Shown in pieces: positions 2,455-25,171 of a DNA stretch of 64,000 nucleotides; position 1 is the first letter of the stretch; the number at the start of each line of letters is the position of its first letter. The notes under the pieces were generated by a model. That model had not been told where the DNA came from. It saw nothing but the letters and a program-made list of their open reading frames with translations, and did not search any database. The DNA is from Pseudomonas cavernicola (GTDB lineage: Bacteria; Pseudomonadota; Gammaproteobacteria; Pseudomonadales; Pseudomonadaceae): the NCBI RefSeq assembly GCF_003596405.1, contig NZ_QYUR01000008.1, forward strand, positions 620,001 to 684,000, in the 5' to 3' direction. The position numbers and the translations under genes are program-made.

Positions 2455-2628
2455 TTACACCTCTGTCTGCTCTGCCAGTTCCAGGGCATCATCGACCTCG
2501 ATCCCCAGGTATCTGACGGTGCTTTCAAGCTTCGTATGACCGAGCAGGAGCTGCACCGCTCTTAGGTTCTTCGTCCGGCGATAGATCAACGAGGCCTTGG
2601 TGCGGCGTAGCGTATGAGTGCCGTACAT
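2455..2628 (-). pseudogene. C-terminal fragment of a small tyrosine recombinase
   Basis: The 57-residue frame starts MYGTHTLRRTKASLIYRR and continues through LLLGHTKLESTVRYLG to the stop. It contains the box II H-x-x-R (HTLRR), the GHT motif and the catalytic Tyr (VRY) of a phage-type integrase. It matches the C-terminus of the ~200-aa tyrosine integrases that occur in several copies in Pseudomonas. The N-terminal two thirds, including the box I arginine, are missing, so it cannot be active. A fragment matching the N-terminus of the same family lies at 6566-6631 on the same strand. Confidence 0.75.
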
Positions 2629-2692
2629 CGCCGGGACGCGGGCTACTCGCTGCGCTCACCCTTCGCGCCCGCCTACGGTGCTGCGCACGCTC

Positions 2693-11499: not shown

Positions 11500-11680
11500 C
11501 CGGCGTAAAATCCCGAAGCCGCCCTAGTGATGCCTCTCCCAGCGCCCATACTGGCAACGAAGCCCGGTCTGTGCCAGCTTCCGTTGGGAGGCTGGCTTTA
11601 CCGCTGTCTCCCATAGAAGCGACACGCGGCTCCTCATGGTGCGAGGGCAGGGGGCCGGCAGTGCACCGAGGACTATTAAG

Positions 11681-12142
11681 ATGAATGTAGCTCGCGAGTC
11701 ATCCGCCGCCGCAGTGGAATCCTTGGCGCGGCGAGCGGTCGAACAAGCGTCACGGACCGGGCTTTCAGCAGAAGCTTTCGCAGTGCCCGGCACCAGTATG
11801 CCGCTCAACGAGCTGCTTCACGCCGCCCAGCGCATGCCACTTCTTCGGAAGCGTCACGTGGTTTGCCTTGCGCTTGGTGTCTCTGATCGAACATTGCGGC
11901 GTTGGCTGAACGAGCCTTCTGCGCGCCTCAATCCCGCCCAAGGGGAGCGGTTGCTAAGATTGTTCGCCGTTTCCGCCCGCGCGGAAGAGCTGTTCGGTTC
12001 GGCCATCGAAGCAGAACGCTGGCTAACCGCCCCGGCAATAGGGCTAGACCGGCGGATCCCTTTGGACCTAATCAAAGAGCCCGCCGACTACGAGCAGCTG
12101 GCCGCCTTTCTGACGCGGCTCGAGTACGGTGTATACCAGTAA
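11681..12142 (+). CDS. Xre/MbcA/ParS-type antitoxin, apparently without its toxin
   Basis: A 153-aa protein. Residues ~45-85 form a Xre-like helix-turn-helix (LALGVSDRTLRRWLNEP). Residues ~90-150 form the MbcA/ParS/Xre toxin-binding domain (ERLLRLFAVSARAEELFGS, then IPLDLIKEPADYEQLAAFLT). Such antitoxins neutralise RES-domain NAD-degrading toxins encoded immediately downstream. No RES gene follows here; the next 370 bp contain a possible intron scrap and an IS5 stub. I chose the ATG at 11681 with CGAGGA upstream; an ATG at 11636 is also possible. Confidence 0.8.
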   Translation: MNVARESSAAAVESLARRAVEQASRTGLSAEAFAVPGTSMPLNELLHAAQRMPLLRKRHVVCLALGVSDRTLRRWLNEPSARLNPAQGERLLRLFAVSARAEELFGSAIEAERWLTAPAIGLDRRIPLDLIKEPADYEQLAAFLTRLEYGVYQ

Positions 12143-12217
12143 GGGACAGGTTCGCCTGGCACGTTGGCTGCACCAGCGCGCGAGGTCGCGGCTCCTTTGT
12201 CTTGTTCGGTCGCGGTA

Positions 12218-12295
12218 GGGATGGCAGTTACCTGCCACCCCCCGCACAGATCCGTACGTGCGGAACTACCGCATACGGCTCCTGCCTCAGGTACG
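12218..12295 (-). mobile_element. Possible group II intron fragment
   Basis: Read on the minus strand, the segment contains GAGCCGTATGCGGTA and CCGCACGTACGGATCTGTG, which form the stem-loop widely seen at bacterial group II introns near the reverse transcriptase gene. No reverse transcriptase coding sequence or domain V is recognisable, so at most a scrap remains. It sits directly downstream of the antitoxin, where a toxin gene would be expected. Confidence 0.4.
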
Positions 12296-12461
12296 TGACG
12301 CGAAGCGTTCCTCAGGGTAAGGATTCGTCGCAAGCCCTCCACGAAGACTCACATTAGGCTCCGAGAAACCCACGTTAGCAGTCAAAGCTGGCCAGATAGT
12401 CCCACTTTTCTTACGTTGCAAGAACATTCAGGAATGGCTGGACACTTACAGTAAATATTAA

Positions 12462-12484
12462 AAGTCCCGAACCGTAGGGGACTT
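12462..12484. terminator. Bidirectional terminator-like hairpin
   Basis: AAGTCCC and GGGACTT pair with a 9-nt loop. On the minus strand the stem is followed by TTTTAATATTT, which suits the end of the recombinase operon. On the plus strand a run of T follows about 15 nt later. Confidence 0.45.
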
Positions 12485-12516
12485 CAAAGAATTACTTTCG
12501 TTTTTTTTTTGGAGAT

Positions 12517-12627
12517 TTAGTTTCCCGGACTAGGGTACCACCTGATCCATCTCGGCCAGGAACCGTTCGGGCGGGTTTGCTTACGTTTGCCTACGTGTTC
12601 GAAATCGAAAAAGCTCATCTCGCTCAT
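12517..12627 (-). mobile_element. IS5 family transposase, second 5' stub
   Basis: The frame starts MSEMSFFDFEHVGKRKQTR, the N-terminus of an IS5-type transposase, and then shifts frame. The family sequence ERFLAEMDQVVP is readable in another frame before homology ends. It lies about 90 bp downstream of ginD. It is truncated at nearly the same codon as the stub at 10080-10193, though the two come from different IS variants. Confidence 0.7.
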
Positions 12628-12718
12628 GCAGGGGCGCTTAGGCCAGACAGCGCGCGCGAATGCATAAACCAACAGAATCAGATTATCAACCAGCGGACAC
12701 TGACAAAACTGGCTGCTA

Positions 12719-13162
12719 TCAGGAGAGCTTTGAGACTCCATCTTTTGCCTGATCGTAAGACGCAAAAAAGCGACGCCACGCCTCAATTCCGCCCATTTCA
12801 CCGACAGCGAGTATCAGTGCTTTATGGGAGGCTGACAATAGAGCGACCTGTTGTTCAAGTTCGCGGATTTGTTGGTCCTTCAGTGCGAGTTCATTCAGCA
12901 AGCGACTCTGAGAGTTTTTTCTGGCGCGTTGAATCCACTGGGTCCGCTGTCGCTGGAGCTCTTGATAATACGCAACTAATTCTCGCCGGTAGGTATCACG
13001 TGTCAGCGTAGAGGCGGCACCGAGTCCCTCAACTGCGCGGACAACTGCCCGGTGAGTAATATATTCATTCTCTTCCAGCATCACTTTGAGGCGGTTTGAA
13101 ATTTTAGCATCAAGCGCTGCTGCCTGGCGGCTACGACGCGTCGGTCTTTCTGGTTCACTCAT
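12719..13162 (-). CDS. ginD: GinD-like small coiled-coil protein of a recombinase operon
   Basis: A 147-aa basic protein. Residues ~10-60 hold a helix-turn-helix-like region (ISNRLKVMLEENEYITHRAV). Residues ~65-125 form a long helix with heptad character (RELVAYYQELQRQRTQWI, then LALKDQQIRELEQQVALL). The ATG at 13162 overlaps the ginC stop by 8 bp, and upstream starts are unnecessary. Small helical proteins of this kind (TnpC of Tn554, GinD of GInt islands) accompany groups of large tyrosine recombinases and are needed for recombination. The assignment rests on operon position and architecture. Confidence 0.7.
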   Translation of the reverse strand: MSEPERPTRRSRQAAALDAKISNRLKVMLEENEYITHRAVVRAVEGLGAASTLTRDTYRRELVAYYQELQRQRTQWIQRARKNSQSRLLNELALKDQQIRELEQQVALLSASHKALILAVGEMGGIEAWRRFFASYDQAKDGVSKLS

Positions 13163-15455
13163 AGAAAATGTCCGGTGGTTCTTCGAGTGGTGTAGATAAG
13201 TCTTCACCATCAGCAAATGGTTTAGAGCCTGGTTCGGAGGAAAGAATTTGTTGTATGTTTGTCAGCCTGCTCTTGGCATGCTGAAGCTGATTATCTCGAC
13301 CAATGCTGTTGCTAGGGCGACTTTCAATCTGGCGGACCGCAATCATAAATTGATCTTGTAATCGAGCAAGGTTGTCTCGATGGTTAGGCAGTGTAGAACT
13401 AGAGAGGTGTCGACAACCGCTGTAACATTCCAAATGTTTTGGGCACGGGTTGACCATAAAGCTGTTCATGCAAAATCCATAAGGTGTTGTGTGGAAACCA
13501 TCTGCTTCCGCAGCGAGAAACTCAAAAGCAGCTTGATCGCCAAGTTTTCGTTGAATTTTTTTGAATTCGTCCACTAATGAACCTGAAATTTTTCCACTAT
13601 TAATCATCGCCAATACCATCGACGAGTTTTCTCCCAGCACTGCTTGTGCTGCTTCCGGAAGTTCGATGGCTTGTAGTTCCTCAGCCAGGCTTCGATGGTC
13701 ATAGACGTAGCTTTGAGTAACGCTCCGGCGTCCAAAGCGCTTGGTGATTATAGTGTCAGCTACCCCTAGCCTAAAAAGTTCGCTATTTTGCAGGTGGCGA
13801 AAAGTATGTGAGTTAATCGTCAGTTTTCGGTCTTCGTCCGTTTGACCATAACGCTGGAAGATTGTGGCCCCATCGATATGTCGATCGTACAAGTTCATTT
13901 GAAGGTCGCCCGCGGTCACGGTACCGATGCCAATGTATCGGGTTAAATCACAGATACCGCCATTGCGCCCCTCAAGTAGCGAACGCTTGGGCGCGAGGAA
14001 CAACATTTCGTGAGTGGCTATCTTGCCTGTGGTAGTGCGAAGCATTGTTAGGTCGGATAGTTTTGCAGGAAGATGTTGTCTGATATAGGACTCAACCTCG
14101 CTTACAAGGAAGTAGCCGTTTGAATAATCAGGTTTGCACGGCTGTCCAGTTGCGTCGCGAAATTTAAGTATCGAGTTGTTGCCTAGATTCAGATTATAGA
14201 AATACCGATGTACCTGGGGTCGTATCTTGCCGTTATGCTGCGCCCGTGCTGATTGGCGCCGTTTAATTTCCTCGAGGACCTCGATATCATAAGTGCGTCG
14301 ATAGCGCTCAGTTAAAACTGATTGCTCGGAGTCGACGTAAATAAATGGATTGCCAGTCAAATATGGAAAGAGCTCATACACTGGCACAAGTTTATCTAAT
14401 CTATAGTCCGTCAGTAACCGCCCTTGCTCCATTTGTTGTTTCAGGCGAGCCCGCAAAGGCGCAGTCAATGTGCTTATGTGCCCTAATATTTCTCGCACGG
14501 ACTCTTCGAACATGCGGGGAATATGTTGGATGTCCGGATAGAGTAGGGAACCTTCCTCATCACTTAGTTCTCGCTTTTCGACGAAATATCGAAGAGCAAT
14601 GGAATCTGAAAATCCACCCGCTTCGCCGGCCGGCCGGCCTTTTTTATCCAAATAATGGTAGGTGCGCATCCAGTCGACGGGGATATAGGGTACTTCTCCA
14701 ATACGCAGTCCACACAACACCAAAATCTTAAGCTGTGCAAAGCGAAGTTCATCATAAAACGTCAGTGGTTTTTCAGTGAACACAATCCGCACCAATTCCC
14801 AGAACGCTCGGCGTTCCGGTAATTTCTCCGCTGCTTTGCGCTGAGCCAATTTCTGACGCATATCTCCGGGAAGTGGCTTTCGTGCTGATCTACTCAACGG
14901 TGAGTTAAGCAGTTTCGATAGTAACGGCGCGCGGTCGGTGAGAAAGTTGAGGTCGATTATATTACGAACGACTGCGGTCACTAGGCGAGCCAACTGTCCG
15001 GAGCTTTGACTTTCTAACGCCACCGCTTGGGCTAAGGCAATATGCTCCTGGGTCAAATCCCATGGTTCCACCTCGAGCGCACAGGTTGCGATCACCCGTA
15101 TCGGCCGGATTATGCTCATAGCCACATGGCCAGCTTTGTTTTTTCGGATAAAGATCTGATCAATGATGGCGGCCTTGATAAAATCTTGCCAGGCCGGAGA
15201 CAGCGCTTTTTTTATCAGTACGGATTGACCAGTCACGCGTCGTCTTTCATTGACTAGCGCAAGACATTTCTCGTCCATTCCCAAATCGGACAACCAATAC
15301 GTCGGACGACCATTGCTGCCGCACAACTCATCTAATGCCCACGCTTTATCACGATCAATGCAGCCGTTATAGTTGGTTTTAACTGGCCAAGAGATCCCTT
15401 GCTCACTGGCGCATTTTTTATTGAATTCCACATAATTTTTGAAGTGGTGATTCAT
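13155..15455 (-). CDS. ginC: GinC-like large tyrosine recombinase
   Basis: A 766-aa recombinase, much longer than ordinary integrases. The catalytic domain lies at about residues 215-630. Box I Arg is in LCGLRIGEVPYIP, box II is HTFRHLQNSELFRLG (H-x-x-R), and the Tyr is in SVTQSYVYDH. A cysteine/histidine-rich C-terminus follows (CMNSFMVNPCPKHLECYSGC), possibly a zinc-binding module, then a helical tail. The gene starts 2 bp after the ginB stop, with GAGGAG as its binding site. It is the third of four coupled genes. Confidence 0.85.
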   Translation of the reverse strand: MNHHFKNYVEFNKKCASEQGISWPVKTNYNGCIDRDKAWALDELCGSNGRPTYWLSDLGMDEKCLALVNERRRVTGQSVLIKKALSPAWQDFIKAAIIDQIFIRKNKAGHVAMSIIRPIRVIATCALEVEPWDLTQEHIALAQAVALESQSSGQLARLVTAVVRNIIDLNFLTDRAPLLSKLLNSPLSRSARKPLPGDMRQKLAQRKAAEKLPERRAFWELVRIVFTEKPLTFYDELRFAQLKILVLCGLRIGEVPYIPVDWMRTYHYLDKKGRPAGEAGGFSDSIALRYFVEKRELSDEEGSLLYPDIQHIPRMFEESVREILGHISTLTAPLRARLKQQMEQGRLLTDYRLDKLVPVYELFPYLTGNPFIYVDSEQSVLTERYRRTYDIEVLEEIKRRQSARAQHNGKIRPQVHRYFYNLNLGNNSILKFRDATGQPCKPDYSNGYFLVSEVESYIRQHLPAKLSDLTMLRTTTGKIATHEMLFLAPKRSLLEGRNGGICDLTRYIGIGTVTAGDLQMNLYDRHIDGATIFQRYGQTDEDRKLTINSHTFRHLQNSELFRLGVADTIITKRFGRRSVTQSYVYDHRSLAEELQAIELPEAAQAVLGENSSMVLAMINSGKISGSLVDEFKKIQRKLGDQAAFEFLAAEADGFHTTPYGFCMNSFMVNPCPKHLECYSGCRHLSSSTLPNHRDNLARLQDQFMIAVRQIESRPSNSIGRDNQLQHAKSRLTNIQQILSSEPGSKPFADGEDLSTPLEEPPDIFYE

Positions 15456-15457
15456 AA

Positions 15458-16990
15458 TTACTCCTCGTCTTCCACTTCCGAAATTACGCGTTGAACTGAC
15501 TCCAAGGTTGTTCGCAACTGCATATAGGCTGGGGTGAAGTTTTCACCACGGGAAGCATCATAAAACTGCAGAACTACTGGTCGCAAACTCTCCAGCACCT
15601 CTTGATGAATCTGAGAGTCGCGGACAGCTAAAAATTTACTGCAGGTGTAACAAGATAGAACAGGATTCTTGGCACAGAGGGACTGTCCTAGGTCACAGGC
15701 TCCAATTCCGGCTATTGGGATACCATGAGGCACCGCGCCAATCTGATGTTCAGGTGGCAGGGCAAGAAGGGCAGGCATATCAATTTTACGGGTCCGCGCG
15801 ACCTCGGCTACCTTGCTGTAAATGGGGGACAGCGCCAAGGCCCGGTTAACGCGCTCGGCCTGCACGGGAGAAGCATCAAAATACGCCAATCCGGTTTCTG
15901 ACCAAGCGTGGCCCATGAACTCGGCTAATTCCGTGTGTGATGCGCCCGCATCCACCAAACGTTGGGCAGCGCTGTGCCTGAGGTCTGTGGCCGGTCGAGC
16001 GATCCCTGAAAGTGATTTTGTAATGGTCTTGATTACATTTCGAACTGAAGGGGGATTTAGACCGAAGTAAGAGTTGAGTAGGGCTCCTTTACCGACTACA
16101 AATGCACTTCCCTTTAAATCGCTTGTACGGCGTTTATGATACTCATCGAAAAGCCAGCACCATTCCCGCTTTATTGTTCTCAACATTGAATAGCGTCTGC
16201 CGTTATTGCGCTGTTTGGCACGATAAAACAGCAGTTGAACGCTTGGCCCATCCGTCAGTTGATGAACGGTGACGTCAGAAAGCCGTAGCTTGGCAATTTG
16301 AATCGGGCGCATGGCGTGCTGGTAAGAAATACTGAGAATACATGCATTGCGCAGTTCGTTAGTTGAAATGATCGAATGACTTCGAACCTTGGCACTGAGG
16401 TCGTCTAAATACGCGGTAATGGCCACCTCTTCAGGTAGCGAAAGAAACACATCACCCTGACGCACGCTCGCATATTTGTCAGGCGGATAAGCTCCAAACG
16501 CACCAATAAAGTCTCTGAGGCCGGGATTGAGCTTGCCAAGGTAAAACTCACAGCAGAAACAAAGCATCGATTTCATCGCGTGGAGTTTAAGATTACTACA
16601 TATCGGCCGTACTGTCAGATGCCACCTTTCGCGGATCTCCAATGGATCCAAAAGCAGGATCTCCATGAATGCTTTAATCTTGTCACTTTCCAACCTGGAT
16701 ATCGCACTAAAGCGTATAGAAACTGTTGCACATGCATGTTTCCCTAGTGCCCAGACCAGCCAATGCTTAAGCAAGAGTTTGAATACTGGCGGTTCAAAGT
16801 TGTGAAATGCTAACATTTCTATTTTTCCATCGGCCTCCAAACGCCATTCATCCAGAGAGGTATCACGGATTGTTCTCCAGACTTCAGCAAAGTCATCCCA
16901 ATATCGGAGTAACGAGGGAAGCTGTGGCAGCGTTGATACCGCTACCTCCAACGCAGATATCGCTGAAGAATTGCGTGCAGGCTCATGCAT
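15458..16990 (-). CDS. ginB: GinB-like tyrosine recombinase
   Basis: A 510-aa recombinase whose catalytic domain lies at residues ~190-410. Box I Arg is in QHAMRPIQIAKLRL. Box II reads TDLRHSAAQRLVDAG, so the first position of H-x-x-R is Thr rather than His. GHAWSETGLAYFDAS supplies the GH motif and the Tyr nucleophile. The C-terminus has CDLGQSLCAKNPVLSCYTC, a likely zinc-binding Cys cluster comparable to the one in GinC. The start ATG overlaps the ginA stop by 8 bp. The Thr substitution could weaken its own catalysis and make it act mainly with its partners. Confidence 0.85.
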   Translation of the reverse strand: MHEPARNSSAISALEVAVSTLPQLPSLLRYWDDFAEVWRTIRDTSLDEWRLEADGKIEMLAFHNFEPPVFKLLLKHWLVWALGKHACATVSIRFSAISRLESDKIKAFMEILLLDPLEIRERWHLTVRPICSNLKLHAMKSMLCFCCEFYLGKLNPGLRDFIGAFGAYPPDKYASVRQGDVFLSLPEEVAITAYLDDLSAKVRSHSIISTNELRNACILSISYQHAMRPIQIAKLRLSDVTVHQLTDGPSVQLLFYRAKQRNNGRRYSMLRTIKREWCWLFDEYHKRRTSDLKGSAFVVGKGALLNSYFGLNPPSVRNVIKTITKSLSGIARPATDLRHSAAQRLVDAGASHTELAEFMGHAWSETGLAYFDASPVQAERVNRALALSPIYSKVAEVARTRKIDMPALLALPPEHQIGAVPHGIPIAGIGACDLGQSLCAKNPVLSCYTCSKFLAVRDSQIHQEVLESLRPVVLQFYDASRGENFTPAYMQLRTTLESVQRVISEVEDEE

Positions 16991-18218
16991 TCTTCGTTAC
17001 TCCACCGAGTTGACGCAGCGCGTCGATGTGCAAATCAAAGGAGTCGGCCCATACGGTCACCAGACGGTCCTCAAAGTACGCCCGGGCGTAGCGTTGGGGC
17101 ATTTGCGAAGTGCGTGACCAACCAAAGAAAACCCTCAGCTTTTGAATGGCCATGTCCATTTCTTCACCCGCATCCACAAACTGTTTCAATCGAACGGTGG
17201 CGCAGGTATGGCGCATATCATGGGGTTTGATCTGCTGAGCTTTTCGGCGATCAAACAATTCCTGTCTAGCTGCAGGGGACAAGTGGCTCGACAGGACTTG
17301 GAACATGGCGTTGACTGATCGATTTGAAAGTGGCGAGCCTTCTTGTGACGAAAAAAGATAGCTGTGTGCGGCGCCAATGCGGTAGTTGTTCACGAAGGTT
17401 TGGATAGCTGAAGCAATAACAGGTGCTACGGGAAGCTGCCGTACCGCGTAAGCGTTCTTTAGGTTCGGCGACTCAGACCGCGGGTCGGATGGCTCATAGG
17501 GATTCTCGATGACATCCAACCAGTACCTGACACTCTGGGGGCTTTTCGGCATGACTTGATCTTTCAGTGCATCGAGGGCCAGCACCAGAGTTTCACCGCG
17601 ACGCAGGCCTTGATGCAGCATCAAAAGCACGATGACAAAATTACGCCAACGCAGTGCTTCGGTGCGGAACGGGTTTCGTGCTGATAGCGGGTCGATCAGT
17701 TGATATAAGTCTTCGATCACGCCACTGGGTAATGCCCGGGCAATTTCGGCCGGGCGTTTTTTGCGGGGGTTCAGTGAATGATAGAGCTGCTCTAGGCGCT
17801 GGAGTCGGTTATTCAGGAGCCACATGCTGCTTCTGTCGGGATTGTTTTTGACCAGGCGCTGCAGGCAGTCCTCGACAAAGCCAAGCACTGCACGCCACGC
17901 GGTACTGTGATCCGTGCGGTCTTGCGCACCACGATTGCACAAGCTGACGAAGTAGCCCTCCAGACAAGTTTCGAGCAAGTCGAAATCGAGTTGGGTGATC
18001 AGCCGGTCCAAGCAGTCCTGACGACATTGACTCGCAACCGATTGATAGAACTGTTCCAGGGTCGCCAGTCGCGCCGACAACGTTGAGTCGGCCAATTCAG
18101 CACCGGCAAGGGCGGTCCAAACGGTCGACCAGTACCGAGGCCGACCCAGACTGTCGAGCAACAGCCAGCCGACTAACGCCGGAGGCAGAATAGGATCACG
18201 CAAACGCAGACGTGGCAT
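16983..18218 (-). CDS. ginA: GinA-like tyrosine recombinase
   Basis: A 411-aa recombinase, first gene of the operon. The N-terminal ~190 residues form a SAM-like DNA-binding region. The catalytic domain carries box I in HQGLRRGETLVLALDAL, box II in KPHDMRHTCATVRL and Tyr in QMPQRYARAYFEDR. All key residues are present. The operon's regulatory region lies between this start and the dif site, including a 10-bp inverted repeat about 40 bp upstream. Three tandem recombinases plus a small helical protein is the ginABCD plan reported for GInt islands of Pseudomonas. Confidence 0.85.
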   Translation of the reverse strand: MPRLRLRDPILPPALVGWLLLDSLGRPRYWSTVWTALAGAELADSTLSARLATLEQFYQSVASQCRQDCLDRLITQLDFDLLETCLEGYFVSLCNRGAQDRTDHSTAWRAVLGFVEDCLQRLVKNNPDRSSMWLLNNRLQRLEQLYHSLNPRKKRPAEIARALPSGVIEDLYQLIDPLSARNPFRTEALRWRNFVIVLLMLHQGLRRGETLVLALDALKDQVMPKSPQSVRYWLDVIENPYEPSDPRSESPNLKNAYAVRQLPVAPVIASAIQTFVNNYRIGAAHSYLFSSQEGSPLSNRSVNAMFQVLSSHLSPAARQELFDRRKAQQIKPHDMRHTCATVRLKQFVDAGEEMDMAIQKLRVFFGWSRTSQMPQRYARAYFEDRLVTVWADSFDLHIDALRQLGGVTKNA

Positions 18219-18313: not shown

Positions 18314-18341
18314 GATTCGCATAATGTATATTATGTTAAAC
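18314..18341 (+). other. dif: dif-like XerC/XerD recombination site
   Basis: Three adjacent parts match the bacterial dif site: XerC arm GATTCGCATAA, 6-bp spacer TGTATA and XerD arm TTATGTTAAAC. The spacer and inner palindrome equal E. coli dif as I remember it, and the XerC arm equals the Pseudomonas version. Only the outermost base of the XerD arm (C for T) differs. At dif, XerCD with FtsK resolves chromosome dimers, so the site marks the replication terminus. Here it lies 96 bp upstream of a three-recombinase operon, which suggests that dif or its edge was the attachment site of that island. Confidence 0.85.
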
Positions 18342-20051: not shown

Positions 20052-20229
20052 ATCAGCGTCGGCCAAACGTATTAATCCTCGAATGGTCTCAATCGTGAAA
20101 CGCTGTCTGCCATAGTTAAAACCGCTCGACCAAGACGGACATGCTTTGCGGGAGAGGAAAAGACTCGAGCCCCGAGAAAAGGGGGTGAATCACGGACATA
20201 GTGGTCTGGGTAAACCACACGCAAGCACT

Positions 20230-20982
20230 TCAAAACGAGTGGCTGAGCAGCAACCCACCGCCGGAGTCAGGGCTGGCATCGGAAAACCCTTTGAGTGCAT
20301 ACAACTGGACCTTCCAGGATGGGCTGAGCCTTTGGGTCAGGAACAGGGTGAATTCCTGGATCCCATCGCCATCGGCAGTCACTTTCTGTCGCCAGTCATA
20401 GGCCGCCCCCACGGAAGTCGCAGGCGCTAGTCGGGTAACGAAGCCGAGCGAGGCAAAAATCGGATCGCGGAGGTTAGTTTCCGAGGGATCGCCGAACTTC
20501 TTCCAGCCCAAAGTAGCAAAGCCGCTGATAACCCCGAAGGCCTGCGTGAGGTCGAACTGGGCGGAGAAGTCAGTCTTGCCGGTTCCGAGGCAGTTTTCTT
20601 CATCGGCTGTCGGCAGCTTTACCTTGCCGATCAGCTCCACGATCAGCCCATCACCTCGACTGCCGTCCAACAGCGCGAAGTTCGCACTCGCCACAGTGTC
20701 CCCCAGGCCTTTTTCAACGCTGCCGCAGTCCCCTGGCAATGGTTCGCCATCCGGCCCTACCGAGGGATTGGTGATGCGCAGGTACGGGATGGTCAACTTG
20801 TAGATCATGGGACCGGTTTCATACTTAGCGACCACCGGGACATACCAAGTCTCGCTGGTTGTCGGGGTCCCGTATTTCCCCCGCGAGTAATCAAGCCCTG
20901 AAGAAACCGTGAACTCATCGGCAAGGACCGGCAAGACCAGGGACACCAAAAGGCCCGGCATGATCAGGCGAGCAGCTCTCAT
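20230..20982 (-). CDS. Small outer-membrane beta-barrel protein
   Basis: A 250-aa protein. A signal peptide ends at VLPVLA, followed by alternating amphipathic strands (FTVSSGLDYSRGKYG, ETWYVPVVAKYE, MIYKLTIPYLRI) and a terminal aromatic strand ending LLLSHSF, the usual barrel-insertion signal. The pattern resembles the MetA-pathway/transporter-type barrels found next to uncharacterised envelope genes. Its role is unknown. It is on the same strand as the DUF5666/DUF6502 pair, 181 bp downstream of it, and may share a transcript. Confidence 0.7.
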   Translation of the reverse strand: MRAARLIMPGLLVSLVLPVLADEFTVSSGLDYSRGKYGTPTTSETWYVPVVAKYETGPMIYKLTIPYLRITNPSVGPDGEPLPGDCGSVEKGLGDTVASANFALLDGSRGDGLIVELIGKVKLPTADEENCLGTGKTDFSAQFDLTQAFGVISGFATLGWKKFGDPSETNLRDPIFASLGFVTRLAPATSVGAAYDWRQKVTADGDGIQEFTLFLTQRLSPSWKVQLYALKGFSDASPDSGGGLLLSHSF

Positions 20983-21163
20983 GTTTACCTCGTTGCGATC
21001 CAGACATCGAAGTTCACATCACAATCATTGCCCTGCCCTGACGGAACCTTCATGGAGCCCGGTTACCCCTATTCCTTCCAGGACGCTGGCCCTGCTTAGC
21101 TTAGCCGGCTATCTGTCATCCGTTTGGGCATATGCCTGCCTCCAGCAGAGATCGATTCGGCCT

Positions 21164-22618
21164 CTAGTTGGGCCCGGACCGGTCCACCTTCTCGACCCGC
21201 TCCACCTGTTCAACATTGTCTGGTCGTTCGACGCGTTCAGGCTTGTCCACACGCTCTACGCGTTCAACCCGTTCCGGTTTATCAACACGGTCCGACCGTT
21301 CGATTCTCTCGATTCTCTCGATCCGCTCGACCCGCACACCGTTCTCGAAAATCTCTATCCGCTCCCGGGTTTCCAGGCGGTCACCGGAATCGCGTGTCTC
21401 TATCCGCTCGCGACGTTCCAATTCGCCGGACGCAGATTCCTCTCTCCGCTCGATTCTCACCCGGGTCTCGCCATCGTCGCTCCGTTCGATTCTCTCCCGC
21501 GTCTCGCCATCGCTGCTACGCTCGCGTGACTCGGTGCCGTCCCGACCGGAGCCGCTATTCTCGTGTTGCTCGGTTTCATCCGTAGACGAGCCCTGGTGGC
21601 CGGAACCCTCCCGGATGGAGGTTGCGGGCTGCTCCCGGGAGATTTCGATGCGCGCGGCCCGGATATCCCGCCCCTTGCCGAACACGCCGGTCACCCGGAT
21701 ACGCTGGTCGACCGCAAGGTCGGCGGCCTGCCCGCCGGAATAGGACGTACTACTGTCCACATAGGCAATAAATCCGCCGAACTCAATGCGATTTCCCTGC
21801 TGTCCGCGCACCAATCCTTCCACCAGCGCGTTACGCACCCGTCCGGCGAAGGGCATGCCAGGATCGCTACGCGTCTGGATGACATTCAGTTGCCTGCCAT
21901 TCCAGGTCCCGCGCACCAAGACCTCTTCGCTGGGTGTCAGCGGCTTGCTAAGGGCCAAACCTTGCAGATTACCGGTTCGGTCGATCGCACCGATGGCGCT
22001 GACCTGCGCCAGTTTCGGTGCCCGATCGATCCGGCTGGCGACAACGATGCCCTGGGAATTGCGCAATCCACTGACCCGTACCGGCTCGCCGATGCGTAGA
22101 CCTTCAGCCACACGGGCCCCTGCGGCAACGCGAACGGGCTGCCCCATCACCCGCATTGGAGCAGCGCCTGTTGCCACATCCGAGATCGGACCTTCATAGG
22201 CATGGAGGATCGCGATGCTCCGCGCCTCGAGCCCTCGTGGTGATTTGCGGGCCTCCACCGCCACGACTTGGCCAATGGCCAGTTGGTTGCTGCTGGCAGA
22301 TACACCGTTCTCACTGAGCGAAGCCTTGTTATCGAAGTGCACTTCCACGCCGTTCACGCAGATAGAGCCGAATCCGGTGATAGTTCCCACAATGCCCGTA
22401 CCACCTATTCCACCGTTGTCGGACGCGCCGGTACCTCCTATGCCACCGTTATAGGCCGGGGCGCCAGTACCGCCGATACCGCCGGTGGCAACGGCTCCTG
22501 TTCCTCCCATGCCGCCCGGCTCAAGGCAAACCGGTGCGGCGCTCAGCGAGGGAGAAGTCAGCAGTAATGGTCCGCAAATGAAAGCGAAGGCACACAGCAA
22601 GCGCGTGGCAGTGTTCAT
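21164..22618 (-). CDS. DUF5666 domain protein with charged repeat tail
   Basis: A 484-aa secreted protein. The signal peptide ends near LSAAP. Residues ~35-75 are a Gly-rich repeat (GGIGGTGA units). Residues ~78-335 contain three to four DUF5666-type beta domains, recognised by repeats such as GFGSICVNGVEVHFDNKASL and VDQRIRVTGVFGKGRDI. From residue ~340 the tail is almost entirely charged, with ERIER- and DKPERVERV-type repeats. DUF5666 has no known function; its fold resembles OB-like beta barrels. The ATG overlaps the stop of the DUF6502 gene as ATGA, so the two are translationally coupled. Confidence 0.75.
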   Translation of the reverse strand: MNTATRLLCAFAFICGPLLLTSPSLSAAPVCLEPGGMGGTGAVATGGIGGTGAPAYNGGIGGTGASDNGGIGGTGIVGTITGFGSICVNGVEVHFDNKASLSENGVSASSNQLAIGQVVAVEARKSPRGLEARSIAILHAYEGPISDVATGAAPMRVMGQPVRVAAGARVAEGLRIGEPVRVSGLRNSQGIVVASRIDRAPKLAQVSAIGAIDRTGNLQGLALSKPLTPSEEVLVRGTWNGRQLNVIQTRSDPGMPFAGRVRNALVEGLVRGQQGNRIEFGGFIAYVDSSTSYSGGQAADLAVDQRIRVTGVFGKGRDIRAARIEISREQPATSIREGSGHQGSSTDETEQHENSGSGRDGTESRERSSDGETRERIERSDDGETRVRIERREESASGELERRERIETRDSGDRLETRERIEIFENGVRVERIERIERIERSDRVDKPERVERVERVDKPERVERPDNVEQVERVEKVDRSGPN

Positions 22619-23472
22619 GACGAACTGGCCGTTGTCGGGTTGGGTACTGCTGACGGATTGGGTTCAGTGTAGAAATAAAGGCCGATGGTGATGCGCTGCC
22701 TGGAGTCGGGGTTCGGAACGTCCCGTTCTTCCAGTTCGGCGGCCAGTTGGTTAAAACCGATCAGCACCTGCATGCCTTCCGCACTGACGGCTTCGCGCAG
22801 TTGGTCGACACCGGCTGACGACAAGCTGTCGTAGTGGACACTGCGCTCGAAGAAAGGCGCCCCGTCGTCGGTAAGGTTGTGCACGGCGGCGCAGGCATGA
22901 TCGTGGAGGTTGTGCTGGAAATAGGCTGCCTTCTCGTCAAATCCCCTTTGGGGAATGAATGCCATCGTCTCCAGGAGGACCCGGTCCTGGTCGTCCATTC
23001 GCACAATGCCCAGACGAAGCCACTCGTCCAGTACAACGCGGGCACGGATATCCTTGCTGACTTGAGCCACCAGCCCATCGAACGAACACTCGCCACCAAT
23101 GCTGGCCAGGCGGGCCAGCGGCAGCGGCCGGCTGGGCTGCTCGCAGAACGGCGAATTATTCAGCCAGACACTGACCAAGTGAGCCCCAAACGAAATATCC
23201 TCGGGCAGGCTGGCCTCCCGTCCGACCGCCTTGCCCCGCAGGCGCCTGACATCCTTGCGATGCACCCCCGTCAGCAGGCTGATCCTGCTGTCGGTCGGAG
23301 GCTTGTCGTCGAGGCGAAATTCGCGCTCGGCTACATCAACGAATATCTCCTTAAGCAGGTCGGCAAATCTGACATAGGTGACCCCCTTTTTGAGCATCAG
23401 CCTCACCAATGGGCGCATTACGTGCTTCAGCGCCGGCAGTAGAGAGGGAGGCAAGGTGGGTAATTGCATCAA
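22615..23472 (-). CDS. DUF6502 family protein
   Basis: A 285-aa protein whose N-terminus (MRPLVRLMLKKGVTYVRFAD, then LLKEIFVDVAEREF) and following winged-helix-like region (RISLLTGVHRKDVRRLRG) fit DUF6502. The helix-turn-helix character suggests DNA binding, perhaps regulation of the coupled DUF5666 gene. There is no signal peptide or membrane segment. It overlaps the DUF5666 start by 4 bp. The pairing with DUF5666 is a recurrent association as far as I recall, but neither protein has an assigned function. Confidence 0.75.
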   Translation of the reverse strand: MMQLPTLPPSLLPALKHVMRPLVRLMLKKGVTYVRFADLLKEIFVDVAEREFRLDDKPPTDSRISLLTGVHRKDVRRLRGKAVGREASLPEDISFGAHLVSVWLNNSPFCEQPSRPLPLARLASIGGECSFDGLVAQVSKDIRARVVLDEWLRLGIVRMDDQDRVLLETMAFIPQRGFDEKAAYFQHNLHDHACAAVHNLTDDGAPFFERSVHYDSLSSAGVDQLREAVSAEGMQVLIGFNQLAAELEERDVPNPDSRQRITIGLYFYTEPNPSAVPNPTTASSS

Positions 23473-23658
23473 TGCATTCCTTAAAAACTGTTGATAGCTA
23501 AAAACTCCCCTGAGCGGTCAGCCCAGCTTTTCGCCCGAGATACTCGGCAATCCCGCCTCCATCGCCTAGAGCAGTACATCCGTCTCACTTACCGGCCCCG
23601 CGCCACAAAACCCGGAGCGATCGTCGCCCGGTTCATCGCCCGCGTGCGCTCCATGAAG

Positions 23659-23696
23659 GAGTCGCAAGCCCCGCGACTCTTCAGGGCTTGCGACTC
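23659..23696. terminator. Hairpin between the Gly/Ser-rich gene and DUF6502
   Basis: A perfect 13-bp stem (GAGTCGCAAGCCC with its complement) has a 12-nt loop that contains a further GCGACTC. The left arm can therefore pair with either of two partners, as in an attenuator. No T-run is present. The rest of the ~300-bp gap between the two genes shows nothing else. Confidence 0.4.
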
Positions 23697-23772
23697 TCGG
23701 TTGATGCGTCCCTCAAGCTCCCGGGACGTTTTCTACGGGTATGCCTGCGTGTTCATTTCGGAACTCGCTGGC

Positions 23773-24903
23773 CTAGCGCTGTACCTCAACCACGTCGACA
23801 TCCGGTGCGTCCGGTGCGTCCGGTGCGTCAGGGGCTTCATTGGCTTCCTCCGCAGCCTCTCTCGCAGCATCTGCGACCTCTTCGGCAGCCTCTCTAGCAG
23901 CATCTGCGGCGTCTTCGGCAGCCTCTCTAGCAGCATCTGCGGCGTCTTCGGCAGCCTCTCTGGCTGCATCTGCGGCGTCTTCGGCAGCCTCTCTGGCTGG
24001 ATCTGCCGCAGCTCTGGCAGCGTCTCTGGCTGCATCTGCCGCAGCTCTGGCAGCGTCTCTGGCTGCATCTGCCTCATCTTTGGCAGCGTCCCTGGCTGCG
24101 TCTGCAGCAGCTCTGGCAGCATCTCTGGCTGCATCTGCGCCCTCTACGCCAGCCGCTTTGGCAGCGTCTCTGGCCGCATCTGCGGCAGCTCTGGCAGCGT
24201 CCCTGGCTGCATCCGCAGCGTCTCTAGCAGCATCTCTGGCTGCATCTGCATCAGCTCTGGCAGCGTCCCTGGCTGCATCTGCAGCGTCGTTGTCAGCGTC
24301 GTTGTCAGCATCGTTGTCAGCGTCGTTGTCAGCGTCGTTGTCATGGGCATTGCCTGGGCCTCTGTTCCCAGCGATACCCCCATGGTCAGCGTCGCCGTGT
24401 CCCGGGCCTCCATGACCGTCACCGGCATGGCCCGCTGCACCATGGCCGCCGCCATCGCTACCATGTCCACCACCGCCATGGCCGCCGCTACCGGTACCAC
24501 TGCCACCACTGTGACCGCCTCCGCCGTCACCGCCGTGGCCACCGCCTCCGGAGCCTCCACTGCCGGAGCCGCCGCCACCGGATCCGCCGCTGCCGGAGCC
24601 GCCGCCACCGGAGCCACCGCCACCGGAGCCACCGCCACCTGAGCCGCCACCACCAGAGCCGCCGCCACCGGAGCCGCCGCCACCGGAGCCACCGCCACCG
24701 GAGCCGCCGCCACCGGAGCCACCGCCACCAGAGCCGCCACCACCGGAGCCACCGCCACCGGAGCCACCGCCTCCGCCACCGCCGCTGCCGCCATCTTTGG
24801 CATACACGCTGGAGAAACTACTGACGTAATCGGGCACCAGGACCGTCGATGCCGACAGGACTCCGCCAATTGCCAGAGCCAACAAACATTTCTTGAATAG
24901 CAT
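23773..24903 (-). CDS. Secreted protein with GGGGS repeats and 11-residue Ala-rich helical repeat
   Basis: A 376-aa low-complexity protein with a signal peptide (residues 1 to ~35, LLALAIGGVLSAS). It has four zones. Residues ~37-125 are Gly/Ser, including about eleven consecutive GGGGS units. Residues ~125-185 are Gly/His/Asp. Residues ~186-208 are Asn-Asp-Ala repeats. From ~209 to ~355 an 11-residue repeat of ADAARDAARAA type changes gradually to ADAAREAAEDA. An 11-residue period is typical of LEA-like or right-handed coiled-coil helices. GGAGG precedes the ATG with 6-nt spacing. It resembles a flexible linker joined to a long helical rod. No family is known to me. Confidence 0.7.
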   Translation of the reverse strand: MLFKKCLLALAIGGVLSASTVLVPDYVSSFSSVYAKDGGSGGGGGGGSGGGGSGGGGSGGGGSGGGGSGGGGSGGGGSGGGGSGGGGSGGGGSGGGGSGGGGSGSGGSGGGGSGSGGSGGGGHGGDGGGGHSGGSGTGSGGHGGGGHGSDGGGHGAAGHAGDGHGGPGHGDADHGGIAGNRGPGNAHDNDADNDADNDADNDADNDAADAARDAARADADAARDAARDAADAARDAARAAADAARDAAKAAGVEGADAARDAARAAADAARDAAKDEADAARDAARAAADAARDAARAAADPAREAAEDAADAAREAAEDAADAAREAAEDAADAAREAAEEVADAAREAAEEANEAPDAPDAPDAPDVDVVEVQR

Positions 24904-25171
24904 GATGCACCTCCGCTTGGAGTTGCGTAGTCATTTCCGTATCGAACGCAATAACCAGTGAATTCCCCGCCGCTCATTGGAGCGGCCGGCCAACCGGCGC
25001 GGCCATCTATCTGCAGCATGAACAAGCAACTGCGGTTTCCGCACGATCCTTCAGAGCCAGTTATCATCGTTGCGTGGGAAATTTTCCCACATCTTTAGAT
25101 TAGTGCTATCAGCCCGAGTGTCAACGACCGAATATCAGGACTCGCCGTGAAGGCGATTGACCTTGCGCCGG

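Follow-up and report, generated by a model that had tools for sequence, protein, structure and literature searches.

Most circular bacterial chromosomes depend on an intact dif, the site through which their daughter copies are separated. Among described mobile elements, those closest to the locus presented here are the GInts, genomic islands with three integrases (Bardaji et al., 2017; PMC5385486). In the available part of that paper, genes for an ABC transporter and a ribonucleotide reductase are named as targets together with ssb, and its main text does not contain the word dif. As described there in part, GInts appear to resemble the present islands in carrying at one end a ginABCD operon for three tyrosine recombinases and a small fourth protein, with the cargo behind it, and in having a precise target and imperfect repeats, with a 6-nt staggered exchange proposed. 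Unlike the GInts so described, the islands considered here appear to target dif, which they would enter from either side and rebuild, and to stack there; in addition, the repeat shared by host and element in relatives of our island is 8 bp, compared with the 10-17 nt given for GInts, and no such repeat was located for the window’s own copy.

Other elements share part of this behaviour. IMEX, such as CTXphi, TLCphi and the GGI, also insert at dif and are expected to leave one working dif, but in the available part of the source they depend on XerC/XerD of the host and on a mimic that includes the central region (PMC5357621), whereas here the recombinase set is encoded by the island and the switch falls inside one arm. 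The Legionella element LME-1 is likewise a mobile element at a dif site, although its recombination is attributed, in the part of the report available, to host XerL, the other recombinases tested having no effect singly (PMC9765430). Strand-biased circularizing integrative elements and Tn554 have several recombinases and a small protein, a 6-bp exchange and a far end that retains a short trace of the target; in the available text, the sequence clusters of the strand-biased elements are separate from GInts, and dif, XerC and Xer are absent (PMC10214605). No report of GInts at dif was found in the literature, most subscription journals and the GInt supplementary tables lying outside the search. 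This suggests that, GInts themselves being already known, insertion at dif with the site rebuilt is what appears new.

The window, that is, the whole stretch of 64,000 nucleotides analysed here, contains the following features around its dif.

12719..13162, minus strand: ginD, 147 aa counted from an internal ATG
13155..15455, minus strand: ginC, 766 aa, recombinase-like, no family match
15458..16990, minus strand: ginB, 510 aa, tyrosine recombinase, PF00589
16983..18218, minus strand: ginA, 411 aa, tyrosine recombinase, PF00589
18219..18313, minus strand: ginA-side island end, non-coding, 75-78% identical to G191, G353 and G355 and 59% to G141
18314..18321, plus strand: outer XerC arm GATTCGCA, probably supplied by the island, by analogy with G141/G070
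18314..18341, plus strand: dif, GATTCGCATAATGTATATTATGTTAAAC, recognised by pattern match and KOPS switch and the sole dif found in the genome, with XerC arm GATTCGCATAA, spacer TGTATA and XerD arm TTATGTTAAAC

A sequence-only reading of the window had described a 28-bp dif at 18314-18341 beside a three-recombinase operon, and this description holds: the site is unique, ginA starts 95 bp from it (at 18218, on the minus strand) and ginABCD is intact. The centre of the dif is perfect and its base 28 is C; a search of the window with GATTCGCATAATGTATATTATGTTAAAC, allowing up to 3 mismatches, gave this match alone, and 0 in 100 shuffles. In the genome as a whole (5.63 Mb, 8 contigs), the degenerate dif pattern was matched once at up to 1 mismatch, and a query made of the XerC arm and spacer found the window site at 0 mismatches, plus one 2-mismatch match on contig C3. 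The second canonical dif that the same reading had named as evidence against itself is absent from the assembly, and no further dif that could serve as the island’s far end was found. The KOPS-like GGGNAGGG, counted over 464 kb around dif, occurs 22 times forward and 6 times reverse on the left, and 3 and 35 times, respectively, on the right; the GC skew in 20-kb bins is mostly positive to the left and mostly negative to the right. The flip of the KOPS bias and the change in GC skew identify this dif as the terminus, the skew being one of the checks that had been proposed.

The operon is a complete ginABCD on the minus strand, running away from dif. GinA and GinB match the phage integrase family (PF00589); profile searches gave no family match for GinC and no family above a cut-off for GinD. 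Both were recognised through relatives, GinC aligning with the relatives’ GinC and having the R and HxxRH positions in common with them. Three tyrosine recombinases and a small fourth protein, encoded by overlapping or adjacent genes on one strand, define a GInt operon, and all of these are found in the window. No match to GmtY was obtained at E 0.01 for GinA, GinB or GinC of the window, and a GinA of the second lineage described below scored 31.5 bits against the GmtY NCBIfam model (cut-off 340), which places these operons outside the gamma-mobile-trio class. The GC content of the gin operon is 48-51%, compared with 56-66% in most neighbouring stretches. Directly behind ginD lies a RES/Xre type antitoxin gene (11636-12142, plus strand), which reached 80.8 bits in one antitoxin model with a cut-off of 90 and 72 in another with a cut-off of 57. 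Further left, a DS-1 type nucleoid-associated anti-phage protein is encoded at 903-2060 on the minus strand (415.5 bits, NCBIfam cut-off 330; no PADLOC match), possibly as island cargo, and a C-terminal fragment of another tyrosine recombinase (2488-2637, minus strand) may be a relic boundary on the left of the operon. Elsewhere in the same genome, at G000:C2:448211-448918, there is another GinA-like match, a distant one (32%).

In our reading, to which we give a probability of roughly 85%, a GInt that targets dif has its ginA end in the window, insertion being performed by the Gin recombinases rather than by XerC/XerD, with dif rebuilt and the islands stacked. A circular island would be joined to dif by the Gin recombinases, the sequence changing over from one partner to the other between CA and TAATRT, a point that falls within one Xer arm and clear of the 6-bp spacer. 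The island end would replace the outer part of this arm and match it, leaving one complete dif beside ginA, while the original outer arm of the host would be displaced to the island’s far end and decay there. Entry would occur on the XerC side in lineage 1, which includes the window, and on the XerD side in lineage 2. As dif is rebuilt, the host should keep dimer resolution, assuming that the rebuilt site works with Xer, as its sequence and its being the sole dif found would suggest. The next island could then enter, so that islands would stack with the newest next to dif.

Lineage 1 was delimited by searching 398 genomes of the genus, in which GinA relatives at 51-56% identity occur in four others, G191, G141, G353 and G355; in G266 there is a 48-residue GinA fragment, away from dif. 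In the window and these four genomes, each of which has one dif, the XerC side carries ginA or what is left of it, oriented away from dif. The GinA proteins of lineage 2 match those of lineage 1 weakly (67-75 bits). Here a complete ginABCD begins 115-124 bp after dif, on the XerD side, in G188, G388 and G251. A scan of species genomes gave 74 loci with organism names; 43 were examined, one of which is the lineage-1 locus of G191 (Pseudomonas sp. WS 5079), leaving 42 lineage-2 loci. In 35 of these 42, including P. lundensis DSM 6252, P. kielensis MBT-1, P. simiae CCUG 50988 and P. nitroreducens 381H, the ginA match is preceded on its own strand by a dif at a distance of 37-123 bp; some of the named records are the same genomes as in the 398-genome set, and the two samples are not independent. 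At the other seven loci no dif precedes ginA: the sequence of L195 does not extend upstream, L204 matches the gene end alone, L191 and L210 are displaced copies, and in L173, L184 and L189 the cause is unexplained. At L197, in a record titled Pantoea sp. Cy-639, a lineage-2 ginA stands beside a Pseudomonas-type dif, reflecting either a transfer or a mislabelled record.

Two gin operons located off dif resemble lineage 1 more than lineage 2 (GinA 43% and 34%); they are found at G244:C2:3512942-3514141, 49.7 kb away on the XerD side, and at G274:C1:325416-326567, 744 kb away. A further recombinase gene of 306-368 aa is found on the XerC side at G188:C1:2795347, G191:C11:379547 and G353:C1:3475895, about 10, 49 and 51 kb from dif, respectively; in G191, the homology to the left flanks of other species stops at this gene.

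The far end of the lineage-2 islands was placed by comparing G338 and G188, since the DNA that lies directly at dif in G338 is 71 kb away in G188, the length of the island. This end has the sequence TTATGAACATCTGACATCGCCCACTT and, after it, the outer XerD arm that stayed behind, which is GTTAAAT in most copies and GTTCAAT in G188 itself; in a variant of the far end, ATAA replaces ACTT. Allowing up to 1 mismatch, the motif was found at 41 places in 40 of the 398 genomes, and the reversed pattern at 0. Its position could be assessed in the 35 genomes with motif and dif on one contig, dif being on another contig or not found in G388, G042, G318, G155 and G007. In 34 of the 35, the motif is on the same strand as dif and on its XerD side, at 1.2 to 99.5 kb (median 21 kb); the exception is G296, where it lies 1.1 Mb from dif on the opposite strand. 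The near end carries a similar sequence inverted (CTTATGAACATATCTGACATAGC vs CTTATGAACATCTGACATCGCCC). A defined far end behind the gin operon was thus found for lineage 2, as in G188, and also for G141. Island-type end motifs also occur inside or beside broken gin genes, at +27189 relative to dif in G305 (ginB) and at -3394 in G353 (ginC), as if related elements also landed in gin genes.

For lineage 1, the evidence of insertion comes from one species pair, in which the G141 operon is a remnant. G070 has no gin operon at dif, and its sequence from -9547 to dif base 8 matches G141 from -18842 to -9246 at 92.7% (9.6 kb); in G141, the match point is 9.25 kb left of dif, with the gin remnant in between. 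The two genomes are mutual empty sites, G141 carrying a 9.25-kb gin island on the XerC side and G070 a 1.3-kb insert on the XerD side. At the far junction of G141 the outer arm of the host is visible but decayed, ATTTCACA for ACTTCGCA, and is followed by AAGTAGGAATG. As far as can be judged from sequence, these junctions fit the prediction of insertion at dif with the outer XerC arm replaced. The empty site that had been sought to check the earlier proposal is therefore available for a related island, whereas none was found for the window’s own, the closest relative found, G266, being rearranged in this region.

The same switch point is observed in both lineages. In all three empty-site comparisons for XerD-side inserts (G070/G141, G188/G338 and G200/G127), the match to the host at the far junction is taken up again from dif base 21, or would be one base later with the ATAA variant; in lineage 1, it ends after dif base 8. 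Taken from the outside in, the two points fall between ATTTAACA and TAATAT and between ACTTCGCA and TAATGT. They occupy equivalent positions in the two arms of the near-palindrome, and both lie outside the 6-bp Xer spacer; the far ends beyond the switch read AGTGGGCGATG and AAGTAGGAATG. Both lineages, with weakly matching GinA proteins, thus follow one rule, the switch falling between CA and TAATRT. By analogy, host DNA in the window would begin at 18322. The suggestion that the last base of dif marks the crossover edge did not survive, as the resolved lineage-1 case switches after base 8, in the XerC arm, and it is the XerC arm that the window’s island meets.

These far ends also bear on an IMEX-type origin, in which host XerC/XerD would have inserted a circle carrying a dif mimic and the gin operon would be a passenger. 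The target is indeed dif, XerC and XerD were above the cut-off in 5/5 genomes checked, including the window’s own, and IMEX are described, in the available part of the source, as also reconstructing dif (PMC5357621). Xer exchange at the spacer edges, however, would leave a whole host arm at the far end, and this is not seen: the relatives’ far ends have no spacer and lack one whole arm, only the outer 7-8 bases of the host arm being kept, beside the element-specific ACTT or ATAA. They therefore do not have the mimic carrying the central region by which IMEX are recognised. A random passenger would also not be expected beside dif in 35 of the 42 lineage-2 loci. We consider this origin improbable, and regard catalysis by the Gin proteins as the likely route. 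For the reading of a GInt that targets dif, comparison between genomes shows the target, the boundaries, the orientation, the empty sites and the stacking in lineage 2.

It must also be asked whether the gin operon of the window came to lie beside dif through rearrangement or deletion, with no insertion there. The far end of the window’s own island was found neither by motif nor through the flanks of relatives, and the terminus regions of this genome and of G266 are rearranged, both of which would suit such an origin; G266 was in fact tried as an empty site and rejected for this reason. Against it, the distance between ginA and dif is the same 95 bp in the window, G191, G353 and G355 (151 bp in G141), and the end sequence is conserved: over these 95 bp the identity figures listed above apply, the lower value being that of G141, which has a deletion there, whereas across dif the window and the others are 56-58% identical over 95 bp, which is the random level (median 59%, 99th percentile 64%). 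For the G353/G355 pair, the opposite flank reaches 66%, above the level of random pairs. Since the ginA-side flank is conserved and the other generally is not, the conserved block ends at dif. A history of rearrangement is accordingly very improbable in our view, and the window’s own copy presumably inserted in the same way as the islands of its relatives. As for the earlier proposal that an island with its own recombinases inserted at dif and rebuilt it, the target and the single dif are borne out by comparison, while the island’s own far end is missing. A relative with the same dif context and no gin breakpoint, which would have spoken against that proposal, was not encountered, a weak result given that 0 of the other dif loci compared share the window’s left flank beside dif.

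Some further candidates at these sites were set aside. G353 and G355 have a variant XerC arm, TTACGTGTAA, whose delivery by the island was considered and rejected, as the same inner arm occurs in lineage-2 hosts, where the arm belongs to the host; its inner bases are treated here as probable host variation. The lineage-1 end pattern proved unspecific as a search probe, recognising 60/298 genomes, similar to its reversed control; within this draw the window’s genome, G141 and G191 were recognised, and G353 and G355 lay outside it. The right flank of the window was tried as a lineage-2 end (GACAGGT, as in G305) and scored 16 against a threshold of 24, not above background. On the same flank, a 5-kb block at 20193-25155 is 90.6% identical to G266, above most other shared blocks; in G242 this block starts at 79 bp from dif, on the XerC side, and in G266 it is preceded by the ginA fragment, 99 kb from dif.

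A third possibility, that gin operons are kept beside dif because they serve the host in resolving chromosome dimers or handling the terminus, and not as mobile elements, fits their frequent position directly beside dif but is hardly credible, as G188 and G388 are 97.6% identical over 5.8 kb starting at dif with a 270-bp match alone in 9 kb on the other side, near-identical operons with unrelated opposite flanks that indicate that the element moved, and as cargo differs, operons are broken in several species (in lineage 1, 3/5: G141, G353 and G355) and XerC/XerD are intact.

Returning to islands inserted by their own recombinases, stacking is visible in several genomes. The near end of a gin copy borders immediately on a far end at L210 of P. 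fluorescens PS858 and on a diverged far end at L191 of P. putida ASAD, where the same contig has another gin copy at dif (L180). G355 has two far ends, 1.6 and 4.5 kb from dif. Inserts of 1.3-3 kb without gin genes and with the same far end lie beside dif in G070 and G355, that of G070 being 1.3 kb long with one long ORF. The ORFs of these inserts (G070, L148:8810-9991; G355, L041:10419-11279 and 11739-14054) comprise one of a DNA/RNA non-specific endonuclease family, one of the Ymh family and one of 771 aa with no match. The XerD-side near-end signature was found at 16 of 60 other dif loci (score above 99.9% of 1137 control stretches), and gin ORFs within 9 kb of dif at 2 of the 60, a figure that understates gin, since nine gin-bearing loci already examined were left out of this set. 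Base 28 of dif is C in 11 and T in 49 of these loci; the XerD-side near end is present at 7/11 C loci vs 9/49 T loci (Fisher p = 0.005, kinship not corrected). Thus, C at base 28 goes with lineage-2 XerD-side ends and does not mark the edge of the window’s gin island.

The inserts without gin in G070 and G355, the near-end signatures at 16/60 loci and the abutting ends in L191 and L210 lead to a broader reading, for which we see about even odds. In it, dif would be an integron-like landing platform, into which Gin recombinases insert both islands and gin-less cassettes sharing the island ends, serially and on either side, rebuilding dif each time, and the terminus of many Pseudomonas would be a record of such stacks.

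If the GInt reading is true, elements that attack dif with their own recombinases and leave it whole would represent a second solution beside that of IMEX, which borrow Xer. It would tell where to look for large accessory islands in Pseudomonas, and would help to explain why the flanks of dif differ so strongly between species. In essence, two opposite-handed recombination systems would be acting on one conserved 28-bp site, a pair open to testing in laboratory strains.
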